Part shown: piece after piece, positions 32,660 through 60,858 of the stretch | How positions within the stretch are numbered: the stretch's first letter is position 1 | Layout: each line of letters opens with the position of its first letter | Origin: Acephala macrosclerotiorum | Taxonomy: Eukaryota; Ascomycota; Leotiomycetes; Helotiales; Mollisiaceae | Length of the DNA: 64,000 bases | Assembly (NCBI GenBank): GCA_014904845.1 | Contig: MU119318.1 | Location: forward strand, 62,001-126,000 | Direction of reading: 5' to 3' | Program-made: the position numbers and the translations under genes | The notes under the pieces: generated by a model | What the model was told of the DNA's origin: nothing | Database searches by the model: none | What the model saw: only the letters and a program-made list of their open reading frames with translations

Positions 32660-34131
32660 GGCTCTTTCTCATTTGCCTACCCCAATTTGAACATCGTTGA
32701 AATTGTATGGATCAACTTCCGGTTCGAGCAACAAGAGAACTGGAGCGCTCGAAGTTGTCAAGATGCTTAACACTTCAATAATTTGCAAATAGCGGCTTTG
32801 AGTTCTCGTGCGAAAAGGAGTATGGATAGGCCCGAACTCCGAGCCAAATAAATGCAATTGCTGCTCTTTGAATGTAAGAGTTGGGGCCACAGCTCGTAGT
32901 ACACTTAAGCGAAATACACTAAAATCCCAGTTTTTATTTACTTTTCAAAAGTGTATATCAATTTTATGTTTAAATATATTTATTTAACTTTTAAAACTAT
33001 AATAAAACTTTATATTAAATTATATATATATATTTTTGTAATTTTAATTTTATTAAAAATTAATAAAATTAAACGTTATTAAAATGAATTTAATTTGAAA
33101 TTTTTAATATTTTATACGAATTTAAGCGATTTTGTATAAAAACACTAAAAATTTCAAATTTAACTCATTTTAATAGCGTTTAATTTATATAAATAATATA
33201 AAATACGTAAAGTTTTTTTAATATTATAAAATTTGAAATCTTTTTATTATTAAATAATAATAATAATATTTTTTAAAAAGTAAGTAAAAACGGGATATAT
33301 ACTTCCAGAACTTTTTTTGGCCACCCAGTCACGCATGCTGATGCATAGAGAAACATTAATAAAGTGTTGTGATAAGGCTGAGAAGGGATGTCAATCCTAC
33401 CAGCTTGCGGCCTTCCCCCTTTCGGAACCCTGCATCGCTTGCTTCAATCGAGTCGTAACTCTTCTTTCTCCATCGTCTCACCTCCCTAATACATCGAAGC
33501 TTCATGCAATGCTAATGTACAAAGGGTCATGAAAATGGTTCGCGTGGCCCCTACGCTTGATGTCTGCAGCCGGCAGTTGAGACCGTGCTCTCCAAATGAC
33601 CGTTGATTGGAGAAGCTACCGTTCAGGAACCAGGAACAATTCGGGGCCTGCATCAGGCTTATATTGATTAAGCGTCGGATGAATAGCGAACTTCGCGGAT
33701 TCAGCCAATGGACATGTCGTTCGCCCACCCATCTCAAGCCCACCTTCGAGCATAATCTCAACAATGAAGCAATCCAGACCCGCTGTGAGCGGCTCATCGG
33801 CTCTCTCGGTTCACTCCTTGCCCTCCCTATGGCAGACCTTGATATTGAATGTCTGAAATAGAATTGCTTTTACTGGGTGCAGCAATGTCGAAGTCTATGA
33901 TAGCTCTCGTTCTGAGGACGTGCTCCAGTTTTGGGTTGCGCTGAAACTGATGCGAATGCGCTCTCAAATGAGAAGGATCATTTCTTTAGAGATCGCCAGA
34001 CATAAGTGATTGGATACCGACCTCATAGTCCGCGAGATACAACCTCCTCTTCATCATTCGCATAGCCTCTTCGCCTGGACACCAGCTGAATACTTCCGAC
34101 GCCGCGGGTACTAAAAGTTGAGCTGGACAAG
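32660..34131. other. Intergenic region with a MITE
   Basis: Promoter side of the multicopper oxidase (minus) and of phospholipase C (plus), separated by an AT-rich palindromic element annotated separately (32920-33298). The part at 33320-34100 has ordinary composition and no supported gene. Confidence 0.5.
32920..33298. mobile_element. AT-rich palindromic MITE-like element
   Basis: About 380 bases of almost pure A/T in otherwise balanced DNA. The two halves are inverted repeats over nearly their whole length. The left end ATCCCAGTTTTTATTTACTTTT matches the reverse complement of the right end (ATCCCGTTTTTACTTACTTTT). Inner arms at about 33066-33106 and 33147-33186 also pair, with only a few C/T or G/A differences. 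The centre lies near 33126. No ORF is present. Structure, size and TIRs fit a non-autonomous DNA transposon (MITE), and the mismatches and extreme AT suggest RIP mutation. The target duplication is not certain; TA is possible. Confidence 0.7.
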
Positions 34132-47076: not shown

Positions 47077-48249
47077 ATGACATATCTGGTAGCTCGTGTA
47101 ATACGCACGAAATGGCTCCTCCACAATGGGCCACAAGCAACACGCGGCATTCCACGCCCTTTCCTATGCATACCAATGTACTTCTCGACTTGTGGCTGTT
47201 GCGGTCAGCGAGTGGTGAAAGAAAATAGGATTAGCGACCGGGGAGAGAATGGAAGAGGACATATTGATGGGAGGAAGATTGATGAGGATCCGAGGATAAA
47301 TGATTTGGGGAGAGCGATTGAGGATGATTATGCGACTATTCGACAGAATTATGGTACCACCCTTGAGATGCTCGAATGAGAAGGGTGCTGATGTTTGTAG
47401 CTACGCCTAAGAACCCGATTGTCCTTGCACATGGCCTCCTCGGGTTCGACGAGCTGCGTCTAGCGGGCAATCTCCTTCCCGGTGTACAGTACTGGCGCGG
47501 CATCACAGAAGCAATGCGCGCAAATGGCATCGAAGTTATCCTCACCTCCGTCCCTGCATCAGCGAGTATTGAAGAACGAGCTGCGAAGTTGAGTCAGGAC
47601 ATAGCTACCAAAGCCAATGGCAAGAGCGTCAATATCATTGCTCACAGTATGGGAGGTCTAGATGCTAGGTACATGATCTCGCGACTCAAGCCTGACAATG
47701 TCAATGTCCTCTCTTTGACGACCATTGCCACTCCGCATCGAGGATCCTACTTCGCGGATTATACATTGAATGAGATTGGACCTAAGTATTTGGGTCAGAT
47801 TTATAAGGTTATTCAGAATATAGGATACAGCACAGGAGCGTTCAGTCAGTTGACACAGAAGTATATGCAGGAGGAGTTCAATCCCAATACGCCGGACAAG
47901 GAGGGCGTAAGGTACTTCTCGTATGGGGCTACTGCAGACCCTGGGCTCATGAGTGCGTTTCGAAGACCACATAGAATCGTAGAGGAGATGGAAGGGCCGA
48001 ATGATGGGCTGGTCTCGGTTGAGAGCGCGAAGTGGGGGACTTACAAGGGAACGTTGGTTGGAGTTAGTCATTTGGACTTGATCAACTGGTCGAATAGATT
48101 GAGGTCGTGGTTCTGGCACGTCGGTGGGTATAAGAAGAAGTGAGTGTGAGAGCTTCTGCTTTGTGTTAGTTGGCTGACTTGTTGCTAGGTTCAACGCTGT
48201 TGCATTCTACTTGGATATTGTAGACATGCTTGCAAAGGAGGACTTGTAG
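47077..48249 (+). CDS. Triacylglycerol-lipase-like alpha/beta hydrolase
   Basis: Three exons (47077-47353, 47401-48139, 48189-48249) give 358 residues. The catalytic core begins ATPKNPIVLAHGLLGFDEL, the oxyanion-side HG motif of lipases. The nucleophile elbow is IIAHSMGGLDARY (Ser about residue 173), and a candidate His lies in GVSHLDLINW. Further family sequence includes TTIATPHRGSYFADY and GPNDGLVSVESAKWG. It resembles fungal homologues of bacterial triacylglycerol lipases, probably intracellular or mitochondrial because no signal peptide is visible. The N-terminal 90 residues (WLLHNGPQATRGIPRPF, a Cys cluster CGCCGQ, then basic-acidic sequence) are poorly conserved-looking. The true start may lie elsewhere or use another 5' exon, so the core is certain but the N-terminus is not. 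Confidence 0.88.
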
Positions 48250-48680
48250 TTGTTCCTCGAGTATAGAAAGAATTGCTAGATCCTCAAGAGGGCTTCTCTA
48301 TGAATTGTAACAAAACTCTCGCACTTGCTTATAGCCTGCGTTCAAAATTCCTCATTGCTCTGGGACAATTGTACTCAAGCTTACTGTCTTGCTAAGTCCT
48401 GCGTTTGATCTACTCTGCCTTGCTTCACAGTTTTGTCTAAGCAATACCTCAATGTCTGTACCTTGAACAGAAAGGGCCCCAGCCAAAGCTGAATCAAGAG
48501 TCGTAGCATATGCAAGGACATTGAACTTCTGGCTGCAGGGCCCTCTCCCATTCTAGCTCTGTTCGCCAGGCGTCACTCGCCTCTTTTCGCTTCGCTCGGA
48601 CGCTACGGCCTCTAATCACACAGAAGAAATCTCTGCAGTTGTTGTTATGAAAACTCCAAAAAATTTGCAAAAAGATATTT

Positions 48681-48793
48681 GGACCGCTCGGGACTCGAAC
48701 CCGACCCTCCTTACCCAAAATCCGGGCCAAATCCCAGCATGACACCCAAAGTGTGCCATGTGTGTAAGGCGAACTTCCCAGTTCCAGCGGCCC
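48681..48793 (-). ncRNA. tRNA-like core, copy 1
   Basis: Read on the minus strand, the 113-nt core starts GGGCCGC and ends GCGGTCC; these 7-mers pair (one G-U). Just before the 3' end a perfect T-arm reads TCGGG TTCGAGT CCCGA, which is also a Pol III B-box. A GAAC TGGGAA GTTC hairpin sits in the D-arm position. A T5 run lies about 7 nt beyond the 3' end. The middle is too long for a standard tRNA and no anticodon is assignable. It is a tRNA-derived SINE head or a structured Pol III transcript. Confidence 0.5.
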
Positions 48794-49317
48794 TGTGCTA
48801 TATGCGCTATAGACGCTGGTTGATAAGGGAGTTGTGGTTATTTAAAGTTATACGGACGTTTTGCGTTTCGCTAGAATGTCGGATGCGGGGTAGTTGTGAT
48901 AGGAGGTGGGGAGCAAGGCTGGCAAGTGCAATGGGGTATGGCGTGATGGACGAGGCTGTATTTATAGGGGAAGGGGTGAGTGCATGCAAGGCATATTTAG
49001 TCGGTGAATGAGTGGACAAAGGCCAGCAATTGCTTGGACATCAATATTACATCTTTCAGAAGCTATGCTCTATTTCATGCCTTGAACTGTTCGTCAACTT
49101 CAGCCAGCTCATGATCCCCCCATCCCCTCCGACATTATCTCTTAGCACCTCGCTTTGCTCTACCCTCACTTGCATCTTCCAATCAAACCTCAAAAAATTG
49201 AAAGGACTAAGTTTCCATCTAGGGGAAAGTCCAAGCGAGGCTTGGAGATTGAAAGCACCTTCTAAGTCTTCCCTTCCCCTCCAAAATTTTGCCAAAAAAA
49301 AAAAAAATTGATATCTT

Positions 49318-49431
49318 GGATTGCCCAGGGGTCGAAACCGGAATCTCCCTACCCAAAATCTGGGACCCAAGTTCCAGACGCAACCCAAAGTGCCGTGTGT
49401 GTAGGGTATAATACCAGATCACCAGCAACCC
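49318..49431 (-). ncRNA. tRNA-like core, copy 2
   Basis: The minus-strand core of 114 nt starts GGGTTGC and ends GCAATCC, pairing over all seven positions (one G-U). The T-arm-like block is degraded (TTTCGACCC). An A-box-like TTGCGCAATGGG lies just upstream of the 5' 7-mer (about 49436-49447), and a T13-14 terminator-like run follows the 3' end (plus-strand A run about 49294-49307). It has the most complete Pol III signals of the three copies. Confidence 0.5.
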
Positions 49432-50016
49432 TTACCCATTGCGCAATAGACGCTTTGTTTGATGAGGGGTTTCGGCTTATTTAAATCTATACGGATGTTT
49501 GGTGTTTGCTCGGTAGAAGATCAGAGGTGTGGGACTTGTGATAGGAGGGGTTGGAAAGCAAATGTAAGCATTAGAAAGGGGTCACGGCATGATTGGCGAG
49601 GGTATGGAAGTATTCACGAGGCTGGCGAGGTGGGGTTTGCAAGCTAAGCGCGGAGATGGCGAATAGACAAAAACTAGCAAGTGCTGGAACATTGTGCTTT
49701 AATCCTTTGCTAATGACTCTTCGCAAGGTGCAAGGTGCACGAATGCAGAAATCGCTCGTAGTCACTTTTCCTTCTTTACTATTGTTTGCCTTCGCAAAAA
49801 GATGGTTTCCCTCTTTCAAAGTCGTCAATAATACTAGGGCTTTGTCATTTGCCATTACATCTCTGAAGGAAGCTTGCTTCAGCGTTTAACGGCTCGCTTT
49901 GCCATACCTTCGGACCACTTGTACAATCCTTGAGCAAGCAAAAACAGACTTCAAAAAGAGATCCGGATCTTGGTACCAGCCCTCAAAACTGGCAAAAAAA
50001 AAGTAATTGATATCTT

Positions 50017-50132
50017 GGATTGCCCGGGACTCGAACTCGGAACCCCTGCCCAAAATCTGGAACCCAAGTTCCAGCGTGACACCCAAAGTGTGCCACGAGC
50101 GCAGGGAATGATAACCATTTCAACAGCAACCC
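50017..50132 (-). ncRNA. tRNA-like core, copy 3
   Basis: The minus-strand core of 116 nt starts GGGTTGC and ends GCAATCC. It has a B-box-like GAGTTCGAGTCCC and a perfect hairpin CTGGAAC TTGG GTTCCAG (50057-50074) in the position of a variable arm. A T9 run follows about 11 nt after the 3' end. The upstream A-box is poor. Confidence 0.45.
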
Positions 50133-50829
50133 GATCTGATTGATTGATACTGGAAATCGGCTTATTTAATTCTATACGGACCTGTTTGGGAGTTGGCGAG
50201 AAGTCGGCAACGCTAAGGTAGGCGAATGGATTGGGAATAAGGAAGAGGAGGGGAATGGCGTGATAGGGACAAGGCCGGGTTTCACGTGGGAGAAGGAGGT
50301 AGAGGGCTTGGGTCTAGCTTATGGATGGACATTTACGAAGACCAGCAAGTGCTAGCACATTCATGGTCTGCATGACACCTTGAGAAATGCAGGACGCAAA
50401 TATGGTCAACTTTTCCCTTCTTACCGTTGTCTGTGTTTGCAAAAGGACAATCTTAGCTGTTGTCAACTTCAAAGTCGTGATTAATGCTGGAACATTATCG
50501 TCATGGCTGTGGGCAGGTAAAAGAGAAGAGAAAGGGAAAGAAGTCGAGAGTGACGTTCAACAAGTGCCAGCGGACGCTCATCCGGACATGGGCGCAACGG
50601 CTATGCCTATGCTCACACTTTCATGGAGAATTTATACGTACTTCTTGCTTTGCTATATATATAAATGCATTAAGTACATTGTTAGGTTACAATTCCAATG
50701 CTATGACTTCCCCTTGTGCTTTTTCATCCTTTCTCCCAACCTCCTATGTTCACTTCGCAAGTCCTGCATTTTTGGAGGTACATTCACTCCACACCCTAAT
50801 CCTCAACACTCTCACGTTTGTAACGCTAA

Positions 50830-57631: not shown

Positions 57632-60600
57632 ATGGCATCCCGACCGTCGATCGAGCCTCAGGGCAGACCGGAGCCTGGGCAAATTCTCATCGTAATTCGT
57701 GAGTGGGCGCGTGTTCCCATATTTGTCTGTGATTGATTGGACTTGAGGAACGAAACATGTCATCTGGCTGCAACGTTTCTTGACCTGGAAGAAATAAAGG
57801 ATTGTGCTGATATTCATTAAAACCAGACGATTTCTCCGCGCGAAGTTCAGATGAGTTGAGTTTGTCCAAAGGAGATCGTGTCGAGTTGATCGAGCGCGAT
57901 GATGACTTTGGGGATGGATGGTATTTGGGGCGGCACTTGATGAATGGGAGTAGCGGACTATTTCCCGAAGGTCAGCAACATTTATACTTTCAGCCCTCAT
58001 ATGAAGACTAACACCAGGAAGTTTACACGAGAATTGCTCCTCGTGGCCCCCCCTCATACCCTCCTACATCCACAATACCTCGATCGACTCCAACAATAAT
58101 CCAACAACCCACTGGACAATCTGTCCAACCACAGATATTTCCAATTACTGAGGATTCGAAGATGACGGAGCCTGCGGTTGCTACACCGGTGAATGGAGCG
58201 GAGGAAACAGCGCAGACAAGCCGGCATCCCAGCCTTGTTGAGAAACCCAACGTCACCTCCCCTCTGCATACAACCAATATTCCACAAGAAAACGAAAAAC
58301 CAATGCCCACGATCTCAACTACAACGCCAATGGGTCAACAAAAGAGTGTCATGGCGGCGGCCAAGGCACACATCCACGGTCAGGATAGCCCAGTGATGAA
58401 CGAGACTCTGAGCGTAATTGACGAACACATCACCGACATGCATTCCCCTCATCGCAGTGCCATCTCGGCAGCAGAGCGACACGTCGCAAACGATTCTGGG
58501 AGCGAATACAGCAGCCACCTTGTGGATGATTCTCGTCTGTCATACATCAATGGCGAGGACACCGACGAGGAAGATGAGAATCTGCACACGCGCGAAGAGG
58601 TTTCCATTTGGTCACCGGACCAAGTAGCCGAGTACCTCTTCACCGCAGGTGTTGAGGCCAAGCACTGCGAGGTGTTCCGTGATCAGGAAATCACTGGAGA
58701 TGTCCTTCTAGGCATGGACCAGACTTCGGTCTTTCTGAAGGAATTTGAACTGGGTTCTGTAGGACGCAGACTCAAGACATGGCAAAAGATCAAGGTCCTG
58801 CAGGACGAGGTCAATGGAATTGCCTCGACTAGACGGAATACAGGAACATACGGCAGCGAGCATGGCTCAGACTCCACCGGCCGGCATGGCAGTCGCAGTA
58901 TCAGCTCGTCTACCATGCTCCCTAGAATCCCGAGCATGAACGAAGGACCTACTAGAACAAATACACGCCTGCCTAGCCAGCACATCTTCCGAAACGAACA
59001 TTCACCGATTACTTCTCCGGTATCTCCCAAAACTGTGCAAGAAAGACCCGGAACAGGGGGGAAGCGACGACCGTCTGCTGCGTCCATCCGTGACTTGCAT
59101 CATTCTCGGCAAAGTTCTGCAAATGAATTCAGCACTGCTTCACTCACAGGCTCTGTCGCAGGAGATACTCCAGCGTCACCGGACATGCAAGATGGGTCAC
59201 ACAAGAAACAACCTTCCTTCGACAGAAATTGGACGATGGGCTCTGCCATTTCACCATCTCTTCCAAGCCGTCCTTTGTCTTCATCCGGTGTCAAAGCTGT
59301 TGCGAGAAGCGCCACAGATCATTTGACTCAAGATGCGCCTGCATCAACGAATCTTGAGGCACTTGACCGTGGCTACTTCTCTGGCGGCGAAGTTGAGGGA
59401 CGTCAGAAAAATGTTTTGAGGAAGAGAGGGAGCACGACAACACATTCTCGGAACTCAAGCTATACTGACGAACAAAGACTACGTAGCGCAACTGCGCATA
59501 CCAGACATTCACGATTCGGTAGTGTCGACTCTGTCCAGGGCAGCCCATCTCCTGCTGCGCAGAAGTATTACAACCTGTCCATAAACGGGCGTCGGAGAAC
59601 CCCATCTGAAAACTCTATCAACGCTCCTCCTCGACCACTCCCACCTCCAAAGGATGCTCCATCGCCAACTGTTACGAGGCTCGAAGGCGATGCATCTGAA
59701 AGTCCTGCACTCAAGTCTCCCGAGGGTGTTCCTGGTAGGGGTGCTGACTGGCTGCTACCTGTGAAACCAGTTTCGAGTCGTCACTTTGGCCTCAGGGCTA
59801 TCTCGGATGCAGTCACTGGACTTGAGAAATCCCGAGTTACCTCACCCACAGAGCCAGCCGCATCTCCTATGAAGGATTCGCCCATGCAATCTCCATCAAG
59901 AACAGGCTCGAGTACCCCATCTGCAGGCCCAAGTTTTGATCTCGATTCACCTGAAGCAAAAAGCTCGATGACAATGAGTTCGATAAACTCAAAAGCGACT
60001 ACAAGGAAGAAGTCCAAGAAAGAAACCAGTGCATACACCAGAGGACTTGAGAAGAAGACTCCACAAGAGCAGATGATTGGGGCGGATTACAGTGGATGGA
60101 TGAAGAAGAAGAGCCCAAATCTAATGACAACGTGGAAGCCGCGTCTATTCATCTTGAAAGGGCGTCGATTATCATATTACTACTCGGAAAACGACACAGA
60201 AGAGAAGGGTCTGATCGACATCTCATTCCACCGAGTCCTTCCTGCTGATACTGATCGGTTGACTGGCTTGCATGCAACTCTCACCGGAGCCACAAACAGT
60301 CCTACTAGTCCTGCTGGCGCCACAACTACAATGGCCGCCAAAGATGCAGCTGCTGAGCCTGAATCAACTTTGAGCAAGGGCAACAATGAGCAAATGTTCA
60401 TTTTCAAACTGGTTCCCCCACGAGCAGGACTTACTAAGGCTGTAACATTCACAAAGCCTACTATTCACTACTTTGCGGTTCCCAATATCAAGCAAGGACG
60501 CCTATGGATGGCGGCGCTGATGAAGGCCACAATTGACCGAGACGACTCCAAGCCCATCACCACCACATATCAACAGAAGACAATATCCCTTGAGAAGGCT

Positions 60601-60858
60601 CGCCGAATGCGTCATCGTCCACCAGCGCTCATGAACCTCGATGAGCACGTTGATGAAGAAGCGATGAAGACACCTGCGAGCGACAAGAATGGCCTAAACA
60701 TTCACGGCATAATTTTCGACAAAGATGACCAAGAGGGCGACAGCGGAGTTTCAGGAGTTTCGAATTTCGATGTGCAAAAGCCAGAAAGTGCCACTGGCGC
60801 CTTTCTCGATATGAATGGCACAGAAGAGGCCCATCTTCCTGAACCACGAACAGCGTGA
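57632..60858 (+). CDS. SH3-SAM-PH polarity scaffold (Boi1/Boi2-like)
   Basis: Three exons (57632-57698, 57827-57970, 58022-60858) give 1015 residues. Residues about 17-75 are an SH3 domain (IHDFSARSSDELSLSKGDRV, ending GSSGLFPEVYTR), split by two introns. Residues about 263-330 are a SAM domain (SIWSPDQVAEYLFTAGVEAK, then LLGMDQTSVFLKEF). A long Ser/Thr/Pro-rich region follows, and a PH domain at about 757-905 (YSGWMKKKSPNLMTTWKPRL, then LKGRRLSYYYSENDTEE). This order is unique to the Boi1/Boi2 family. They link Cdc42/polarity machinery and exocytosis at growing tips, with the PH domain binding acidic lipids or Cdc42. The exon-2/3 joint uses acceptor CAGGAAG|TT; the nearer CAG would break the frame. 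Confidence 0.95.

Follow-up and report, generated by a model that had tools for sequence, protein, structure and literature searches.

What is encoded by the three diverged, tandemly arranged units resembling transfer RNA (tRNA) on the minus strand of contig MU119318.1 of the ascomycete Acephala macrosclerotiorum? The whole stretch analysed, hereafter the window, comprises 64,000 nucleotides (assembly GCA_014904845.1, positions 62,001 to 126,000). The original prediction placed three copies there, 637 and 699 bases apart, and proposed either tRNA-derived short interspersed nuclear elements (SINEs) or a structured non-coding RNA (ncRNA) made by RNA polymerase III (Pol III). The mapped cores yield exactly these spacings and confirm the three copies; their lengths, given before as 113-116 nt, are 114, 115 and 117 nt (Table 1). 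A DNA search of the organism's own genome (69.66 Mb) returned a single further place, contig C17:200247-200431, where a minus-strand core of 118 nt was delimited (L051:4761-4878; hereafter the C17 copy). With a probability of about 0.5, judged from sequence, these copies form a small Pol III gene family, three in tandem and one on C17, encoding non-decoding tRNA-like RNAs of alanine type. That they constitute a real family of Pol III ncRNA genes is highly probable. The C17 copy, a promoter match with tRNA genes, the D-arm and anticodon stem and an invariant G3.U70 pair all go beyond the original prediction.

In the 5' to 3' direction of the minus strand, every core starts with a seven-position acceptor strand, followed by TG (U8, G9), a D-arm of 3-4 bp with GG in its loop, one base and an anticodon stem of 6 bp in all four cores. 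The position of the anticodon loop is taken by an insert of 48-51 nt carrying two hairpins. Behind it come a variable loop of 3-5 nt, a T-arm of five positions, the 3' side of the acceptor and A73. The T-arm block already recognized in copies 1, 2 and 3 was found in each of them; the T-loops of the family read TTCGAGT, TTCGACC, TTCGAGT or TTCGAAC, with TTCGA in all four. The cloverleaf features of a tRNA (seven-position acceptor, D-arm GG, T-arm TTCGA, A73) are present, and 84 of 88 stem cells are paired on a hand alignment. The first hairpin of the insert reaches 8 bp in copies 1 and 3; the loop of the second contains TTGG in all four copies. A 7-nt linker stands ahead of the closing stem, ATTTTGG in copies 1-3 and GTTTTTG in C17, and the insert and anticodon stem together are predicted to form a three-way junction. 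The middle had been described as holding a hairpin of its own and as too long for a tRNA. The hairpin is there, accompanied by a second one, and the excess length concerns the anticodon arm only, as the rest of the molecule is of tRNA or near-tRNA size. It is likely, on this model, that the RNA folds as a tRNA body plus a junction.

The ends pair over seven positions as announced, with a G.U at position 3; they read GGGCCGC/GCGGTCC in copy 1 and GGGTTGC/GCAATCC in the other two window copies. The accompanying claim that both sides of the stem changed together is borne out, since paired changes exceed those of shuffles on two alignments. The four copies could be aligned with MAFFT; 86.8% of 144 cells are then paired and 11 of 37 pairs are doubly changed, against a shuffled mean of 4.7. 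None of 500 shuffles reaches either value, and only 1-3 doubly changed pairs are left when the partners are slid by 1-3 columns. Because the D-arm is misplaced by MAFFT, this count understates the D-stem pairing, and a hand alignment was used for the four tRNA stems. There, nine of 22 pairs are doubly changed (null mean 3.67; one of 5000 shuffles as high), and of all 24 ways of combining arms among the copies, the native one gives the most pairing, the runner-up (copies 2 and 3 exchanged) reaching 83 paired cells. Each of the four tRNA stems contains paired changes, and transversions are among them: pair 1 of the T-stem is T-A, C-G or G-C, pair 2 of the D-stem A-T or T-A, and its pair 4 C-G or A-T. 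Without a supplied structure, RNAalifold recovers the acceptor, the anticodon stem, the second hairpin and the T-arm, with nine of 26 pairs compensated; the D-arm and the first hairpin were not recovered in this run.

The cores are 61-77% identical between copies (divergence 23-39%), with 9-19 transversions per pair of copies. Far-flank identity is mostly 34-49%, but copies 1 and 2 agree at 56% in their far upstream parts. From these values, the core is under stronger constraint than the flanks for most copy pairs, the pair of copy 1 and C17 excepted. A block 3' of copy 1 (window ~48540-48640, plus strand) and one 3' of the C17 copy (L002 ~1390-1500) share 63% identity, about the conservation of the core. 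By eye, the block of copy 1 contains a possible small hairpin (GGCG AGTGA CGCC), and a second element or RNA may be located in these flanking blocks.

Upstream of each core lies an element resembling TATAGATTTAAATAA, a consensus picked by eye from a display that included the four copies, to which copies 1, 2, 3 and C17 score 13, 15, 14 and 14 of 15. The elements end 44, 45, 29 and 41 bases ahead of the core, respectively. Ordinary tRNA genes of the genome carry it too: 32 of 35 score at least 12/15 within 110 bases upstream, whereas none of 2000 random plus-strand stretches of the window reaches 12 and 2.45% reach 11. This tRNA sample derives from an RF00005 search that scored 63 of 2302 first-look candidates and gave 37 matches; the loci were scanned by ARAGORN with introns, and 35 calls, some of them doubtful, were kept after removal of the copies and one duplicate. 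An upstream block of the small nuclear RNA type, similar to a proximal sequence element, was also considered and was dropped, as ordinary tRNA genes carry the same element upstream. On the other side, the predicted T-run follows every core; the runs of copies 1, 2, 3 and C17 measure 5, 14, 9 and 7 and start at most 13 bases from A73. Internal promoter boxes were compared by eye with their consensuses. Box B fits fully in copy 1, with one departure in copy 3 and two in copy 2 and C17, while box A, in the D-arm, fits fully in C17, with one departure in copy 3 and two in copies 1 and 2. The upstream element of tRNA genes, the T-arm, the T-run and the covarying stems thus argue for the structured Pol III ncRNA of the original prediction.

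The A-box-like TTGCGCAATGGG reported for copy 2 is real, although it is situated outside the core, in the leader (49435-49446); by eye, copy 1 and C17 have a counterpart and copy 3 has none. A 5-bp leader hairpin around GCGC(A) can be drawn in copies 1, 2 and C17, not in copy 3, with 15 of 15 cells paired and a fifth pair that is A-T, T-A or G-C across copies; for the leaders of copies 1 and 2, a different hairpin is favoured by the fold program. In copy 1 the leader motif starts 28 bases past the TATA element, and in copy 2 it starts 30 bases past it (hand counts). Being box A-like and so spaced from the TATA element, it may be promoter, structure or both. Farther away, 164-243 bases upstream of all four genes, stands the palindromic 12-base AGYAMTTGCTRG, with three matches in the window (0.10 expected), one upstream of each copy, and one upstream of the C17 copy (L051:5042-5053). 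As the pattern came from an alignment of the copies, they are bound to contain it, and the result lies in its absence elsewhere: 56 of the 79 fetched loci have no match, and the 23 matching loci hold the array or the C17 copy. It is a candidate site for a family-specific regulator.

Pair 3:70 is G.U in all four copies, whereas the neighbouring pairs 4:69 and 5:68 vary, and position 73 is A throughout. Among the 35 other sampled tRNA genes, G3.U70 is confined to alanine genes after correction by eye of three rows shifted by one base. It is carried by the Ala genes L021 and L027; L034, printed as Ser, is an Ala(TGC) gene with G3.U70; and L026 (Ser) and L032 (Arg), printed with G-T, start one base early and have C-G after correction. 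In the part of PMC9976931 consulted, G3-U70 alone is listed for alanine identity in eukaryotes, with a role conserved in evolution. A gene for alanyl-tRNA synthetase (AlaRS) was located at C7:495109-496953, with one stop inside the match of a search reading through introns, and a 302-aa open frame on C32 matches the C-terminal part of the AlaRS model. Where G3.U70 is invariant and an anticodon is missing, an alanylated, non-decoding RNA is the single interpretation that fits best, although it is drawn from one identity element in four related copies.

As for the anticodon, the fifth pair of its stem is followed by C32 and then by A or G, so that U33 is missing in all four copies. At the canonical place, none of them has an anticodon loop of 7 nt that includes U33, and the nominal triplets there read, by eye, CAC, CAC, CTC and ATC. 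ARAGORN run without introns finds no tRNA in the window. A canonical 37/38 intron was rejected, as position 33 is A or G and ARAGORN puts its introns elsewhere. When introns are allowed, copy 1 is called as Gln (ttg) and copies 3 and C17 as Lys (ttt), each with an intron of 44-45 nt ahead of the anticodon; copy 2 is not called. Ectopic removal would, by our own parsing, leave the loop TTTTGGG in copies 1-3 and TTTTTGG in C17. Most introns called by ARAGORN in other genes have 5-25 nt and leave a normal anticodon loop. Two other long tRNA-like calls, L045:719-849 (C108) and L029:1902-2042, have insertions of 54 and 60 nt (Val aac and Glu ttc, respectively). L045 appears by eye to be a tRNA-Trp gene whose variable region carries an insertion, and both are possibly disrupted or ectopically interrupted tRNA genes.

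Since the alanine-loading mark is kept and a structured junction replaces the anticodon loop, the RNA may be loaded with an amino acid and yet not read codons. In such a scheme, TFIIIC and TFIIIB would bring in Pol III, and the transcript would terminate at the T-run, be trimmed by RNase P and tRNase Z and receive its CCA as a tRNA does. AlaRS, which depends largely on the acceptor stem, would then load alanine. The junction arm would substitute codon reading with another contact, to a protein, the ribosome or another RNA, which would result in an alanine-carrying or AlaRS-binding RNA outside decoding. The chances of the predicted alanylation are about even, and those of a function without decoding are similarly balanced.

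The suggested comparison of the unit with its own genome was carried out by DNA and pattern searches, with match counts that are lower bounds; it gave four copies, three of them in one array. No confirmable fifth copy came from further DNA searches and three patterns in this genome. One pattern matched exactly the four copies (backwards control 0), a second matched three and missed copy 2, and the third had 21 matches, four of which are the family, for 10 in the backwards control. Model R1 supports none of the other 17 places of the third pattern: run on these loci with C17 as control, it recovered the control and, in L065, two more matches (7.6 and 5.8 bits). On 15 further sources, it found the four copies, an Arg tRNA gene (29.1 bits, E 2.7e-6) and a Leu tRNA gene (24.5 bits, E 6.2e-5). 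Weaker R1 matches hence express tRNA-likeness only. One pattern fitting three of the four copies had no match in IMG/VR and a collection of prokaryote genomes, from which records near the own genome were possibly excluded. As far as titles and the openings of abstracts show, which is no proof of absence, such a fungal RNA is not described in the open-access literature. In the portion consulted of a report on 15 fungal RNA motifs (PMC5640933), tRNA is mentioned once and no such motif is shown.

Several observations weigh against an alanine-type family folded in this way. No Rfam family matches the window at the gathering threshold. Relaxing the limit to E 5 adds only three chance-level matches, all far under gathering: SNORD38 falls in the interval from copy 1 to copy 2, snoZ159 next to the C17 core, and isrK overlaps a portion of that core. 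Model R1 failed to pick up any of the three Ala tRNA loci examined, so that descent from tRNA-Ala is not shown beyond the acceptor. Boxes A and B deviate from the consensus at 0-2 places per copy. The first hairpin is weaker in copy 2 and C17, and the unpaired stem cells are spread over acceptor pair 4 of C17 (C-U), D pair 1 (T-T) and T pair 4 (A-C) of copy 3, and T pair 5 of copy 2 (T-C). Between copy 1 and C17, the core is 61% identical and the far flanks 61% and 63%. The hand alignment is biased towards the structure, and the covariation represents few independent events, as it comes from four paralogues of one genome. The imposed fold lies above the minimum by 6.5, 16.2, 4.4 and 13.9 kcal/mol (copies 1, 2, 3 and C17); compared with gaps of 0-8.1 kcal/mol in 20 intronless tRNA genes of the same genome, copies 1 and 3 are within the tRNA range, and copy 2 and C17, for which other folds are favoured by energy, are outside. 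With flanks included, the three window copies have shuffle z-scores of -2.82, -0.63 and -1.58.

The promoter and the fold are accounted for equally well by a Pol III ncRNA that uses the tRNA body for promoter function, processing or stability only, stays uncharged and has merely inherited its G3.U70. Vault RNA, BC1 RNA and mascRNA would be its models. The conserved insert, with the TTGG in the loop of hairpin 2 and the linker, resembles the working part under this explanation; nevertheless, 3:70 G.U and A73 are kept in all four copies while pairs 4:69 and 5:68 vary, and shape alone needs neither. We consider it rather unlikely. The copies could also be old tRNA pseudogenes, that is, intron-bearing genes that decayed after tandem duplication and one dispersal, with remains of the promoter kept. 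Their small number, the weak stems of copy 2 and C17, the missing normal anticodon and the flanks of copy 1 and C17, as similar as the core, would suit such a history. It is harder to reconcile with compensated changes in all four tRNA stems, a promoter element retained in all four genes and an insert conserved in length and motif. Moreover, U8, the D-loop GG, TTCGA, A73 and G3.U70 have all been kept despite the divergence of the cores. Decay is judged unlikely.

The intron calls of ARAGORN for copies 1, 3 and C17 raise the question of decoding tRNAs with a long ectopic intron (~31/32), with anticodon TTG, Gln, in copies 1-3 and TTT, Lys, in C17. All four would then have a 7-nt loop with U33 and a purine at 37 (own parsing), and this tidy loop after removal is why a slight chance is retained for an explanation that is otherwise very unlikely. 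Introns of eukaryotic tRNAs are mostly at 37/38, and non-canonical ones, known in nucleomorphs and a red alga, are supposedly rare (PMC4090602). The anticodon varies between TTG and TTT, ARAGORN and our own reading disagree for copy 3, and Gln or Lys anticodons would stand on an alanine acceptor. Of the explanations offered by the original prediction, a tandem tRNA-derived SINE can draw on the A- and B-box-like motifs and the T-runs, and repeat-induced point mutation (RIP) on the acceptor change of CC to TT with GG to AA. A SINE was rejected on copy number: DNA and pattern searches, whose counts are lower bounds, found four copies, three in one array, diverged at 23-39% in the core, and neither a SINE body nor a tail was seen in any of them. 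RIP makes C-to-T changes; it is not the source of the paired changes, because several compensated pairs differ by transversions, and dinucleotide indices are not raised (TA/AT 0.73 in the array and 0.64 in the window, with 0.53-0.78 in its 4-kb blocks). Both are extremely improbable.

The preferred interpretation, alanine-type RNAs without decoding, has its closest parallel in the tRNA-like domain of bacterial transfer-messenger RNA (tmRNA), for which the part of PMC3985003 consulted gives an alanine-type acceptor, a conserved G-U third pair, tRNA-type ends and no anticodon. The present genes differ in being fungal and nuclear, in encoding 114-118 nt, and in having a D-arm, an anticodon stem and a two-hairpin insert of 48-51 nt. 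No tmRNA match was obtained from Rfam, at gathering or at E up to 5, and ARAGORN, tmRNA included, found none in the window. It is tentatively possible that the family is a nuclear eukaryotic counterpart of that domain, charged by AlaRS, blind to codons, and delivering or sensing alanine through a grafted three-way junction. Possible uses would be an alanine donor to a tRNA-dependent transferase, an RNA for ribosome rescue or quality control, or a sensor of AlaRS or alanine. The upstream element, the cloverleaf and the insertion in the anticodon loop are shared with intron-containing tRNA genes such as the Ala genes L021 and L034 of the same genome, which also have G3.U70 and A73; the four copies, by contrast, have C32 followed by A or G in place of U33, and a structured insert of 48-51 nt. 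BC1 RNA, mascRNA and the tRNA-like RNA of the trypanosomatid signal recognition particle are non-decoding RNAs on a tRNA shape, and the likeness to the four copies would be in that shape only. We know of none among them that unites alanine identity and a junction-bearing anticodon arm. Non-decoding viral tRNA-like ends also keep aminoacylation identity. AfuSINE2 of Aspergillus fumigatus is tRNA-related as well; it has target-site duplications, according to the part of PMC5063351 consulted, whereas the present family has four copies, no visible tail and a conserved external promoter element.

Non-decoding RNAs with an aminoacylation identity are already known, as in bacterial tmRNA. If the proposal is correct, this nuclear family of a fungus, which combines alanine identity with a remodelled anticodon arm, would show that eukaryotic nuclei can come to the same solution, and a use of alanyl-RNA outside translation would become directly testable. 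Such genes may be overlooked by tRNA finders run without long or ectopic introns, since ARAGORN in that mode gives no tRNA in the window. The genome also encodes two candidates for ErdS-like aminoacyl transferases that depend on tRNA. One is an LPG_synthase_C (DUF2156)-type protein that stands free (L080:1024-2556, plus strand, C49; open reading frame (ORF) of 510 aa), and the other is read as a fusion of aspartyl-tRNA synthetase (AspRS) with a DUF2156-type protein (L081:1360-3489, minus strand, C83; ORF of 709 aa). Fungal ErdS is an AspRS-DUF2156 fusion, for which transfer of Asp, not Ala, is described in the part of PMC9437257 consulted. A link between the tRNA-like RNAs and DUF2156-type transferases is speculation.

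Table 1. Coordinates of the array features in the window
Feature	Positions	Strand	Length
Copy 1 core; cloverleaf with two-hairpin insert for anticodon loop, G3.U70, A73	48680..48793	-	114 nt
Copy 1 insert for anticodon loop; hairpins CATGGCAC/GTGTCATG and CTGGG/CCCGG, then ATTTTGG	48715..48763	-	49 nt
Copy 1 T5 terminator-like run; T6 run beyond	48669..48673	-	
Copy 1 leader hairpin CTATA-GCGCA-TATAG, also A-box-like	48798..48812	-	
Copy 1 upstream element TATAACTTTAAATAA, 13/15 versus tRNA-gene element	48838..48852	-	
Copy 1 far upstream palindromic element AGCAATTGCTGG	49023..49034	-	
Copy 2 core; G3.U70, A73; T-stem and first hairpin weak	49317..49431	-	115 nt
Copy 2 insert for anticodon loop	49353..49400	-	48 nt
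Copy 2 T14 terminator-like run	49294..49307	-	
Copy 2 leader hairpin CTATT-GCGC-AATGG; includes 11/12 bases of A-box-like TTGCGCAATGGG	49436..49449	-	
Copy 2 upstream element TATAGATTTAAATAA, 15/15	49477..49491	-	
Copy 2 far upstream element AGCACTTGCTAG	49674..49685	-	
Copy 3 core; G3.U70, A73	50016..50132	-	117 nt
Copy 3 insert for anticodon loop; hairpins CGTGGCAC/GTGTCACG and CTGGAAC/GTTCCAG, then ATTTTGG	50050..50100	-	51 nt
Copy 3 T9 terminator-like run	49994..50002	-	
Copy 3 upstream element TATAGAATTAAATAA, 14/15	50162..50176	-	
Copy 3 far upstream element AGCACTTGCTGG	50342..50353	-	

The array is bordered on one side by a lipase-like ORF (47376-48143, plus strand), named from a reading of its translation only, and on the other by mechanical ORFs from 50387 onwards. 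A BOI2-like protein is encoded at 58162-60858; its best three among the 120 matches listed are from Phialocephala subalpina (94% identity), a Mollisiaceae isolate (89%) and Mollisia scopiformis (87%), which marks the genome as related to these fungi. The Mollisiaceae belong to the order Helotiales. The lowest-GC part of the window, at ~32900-33300, is AT-rich and contains two degenerate tandem repeats with periods of 46 and 28 nt.

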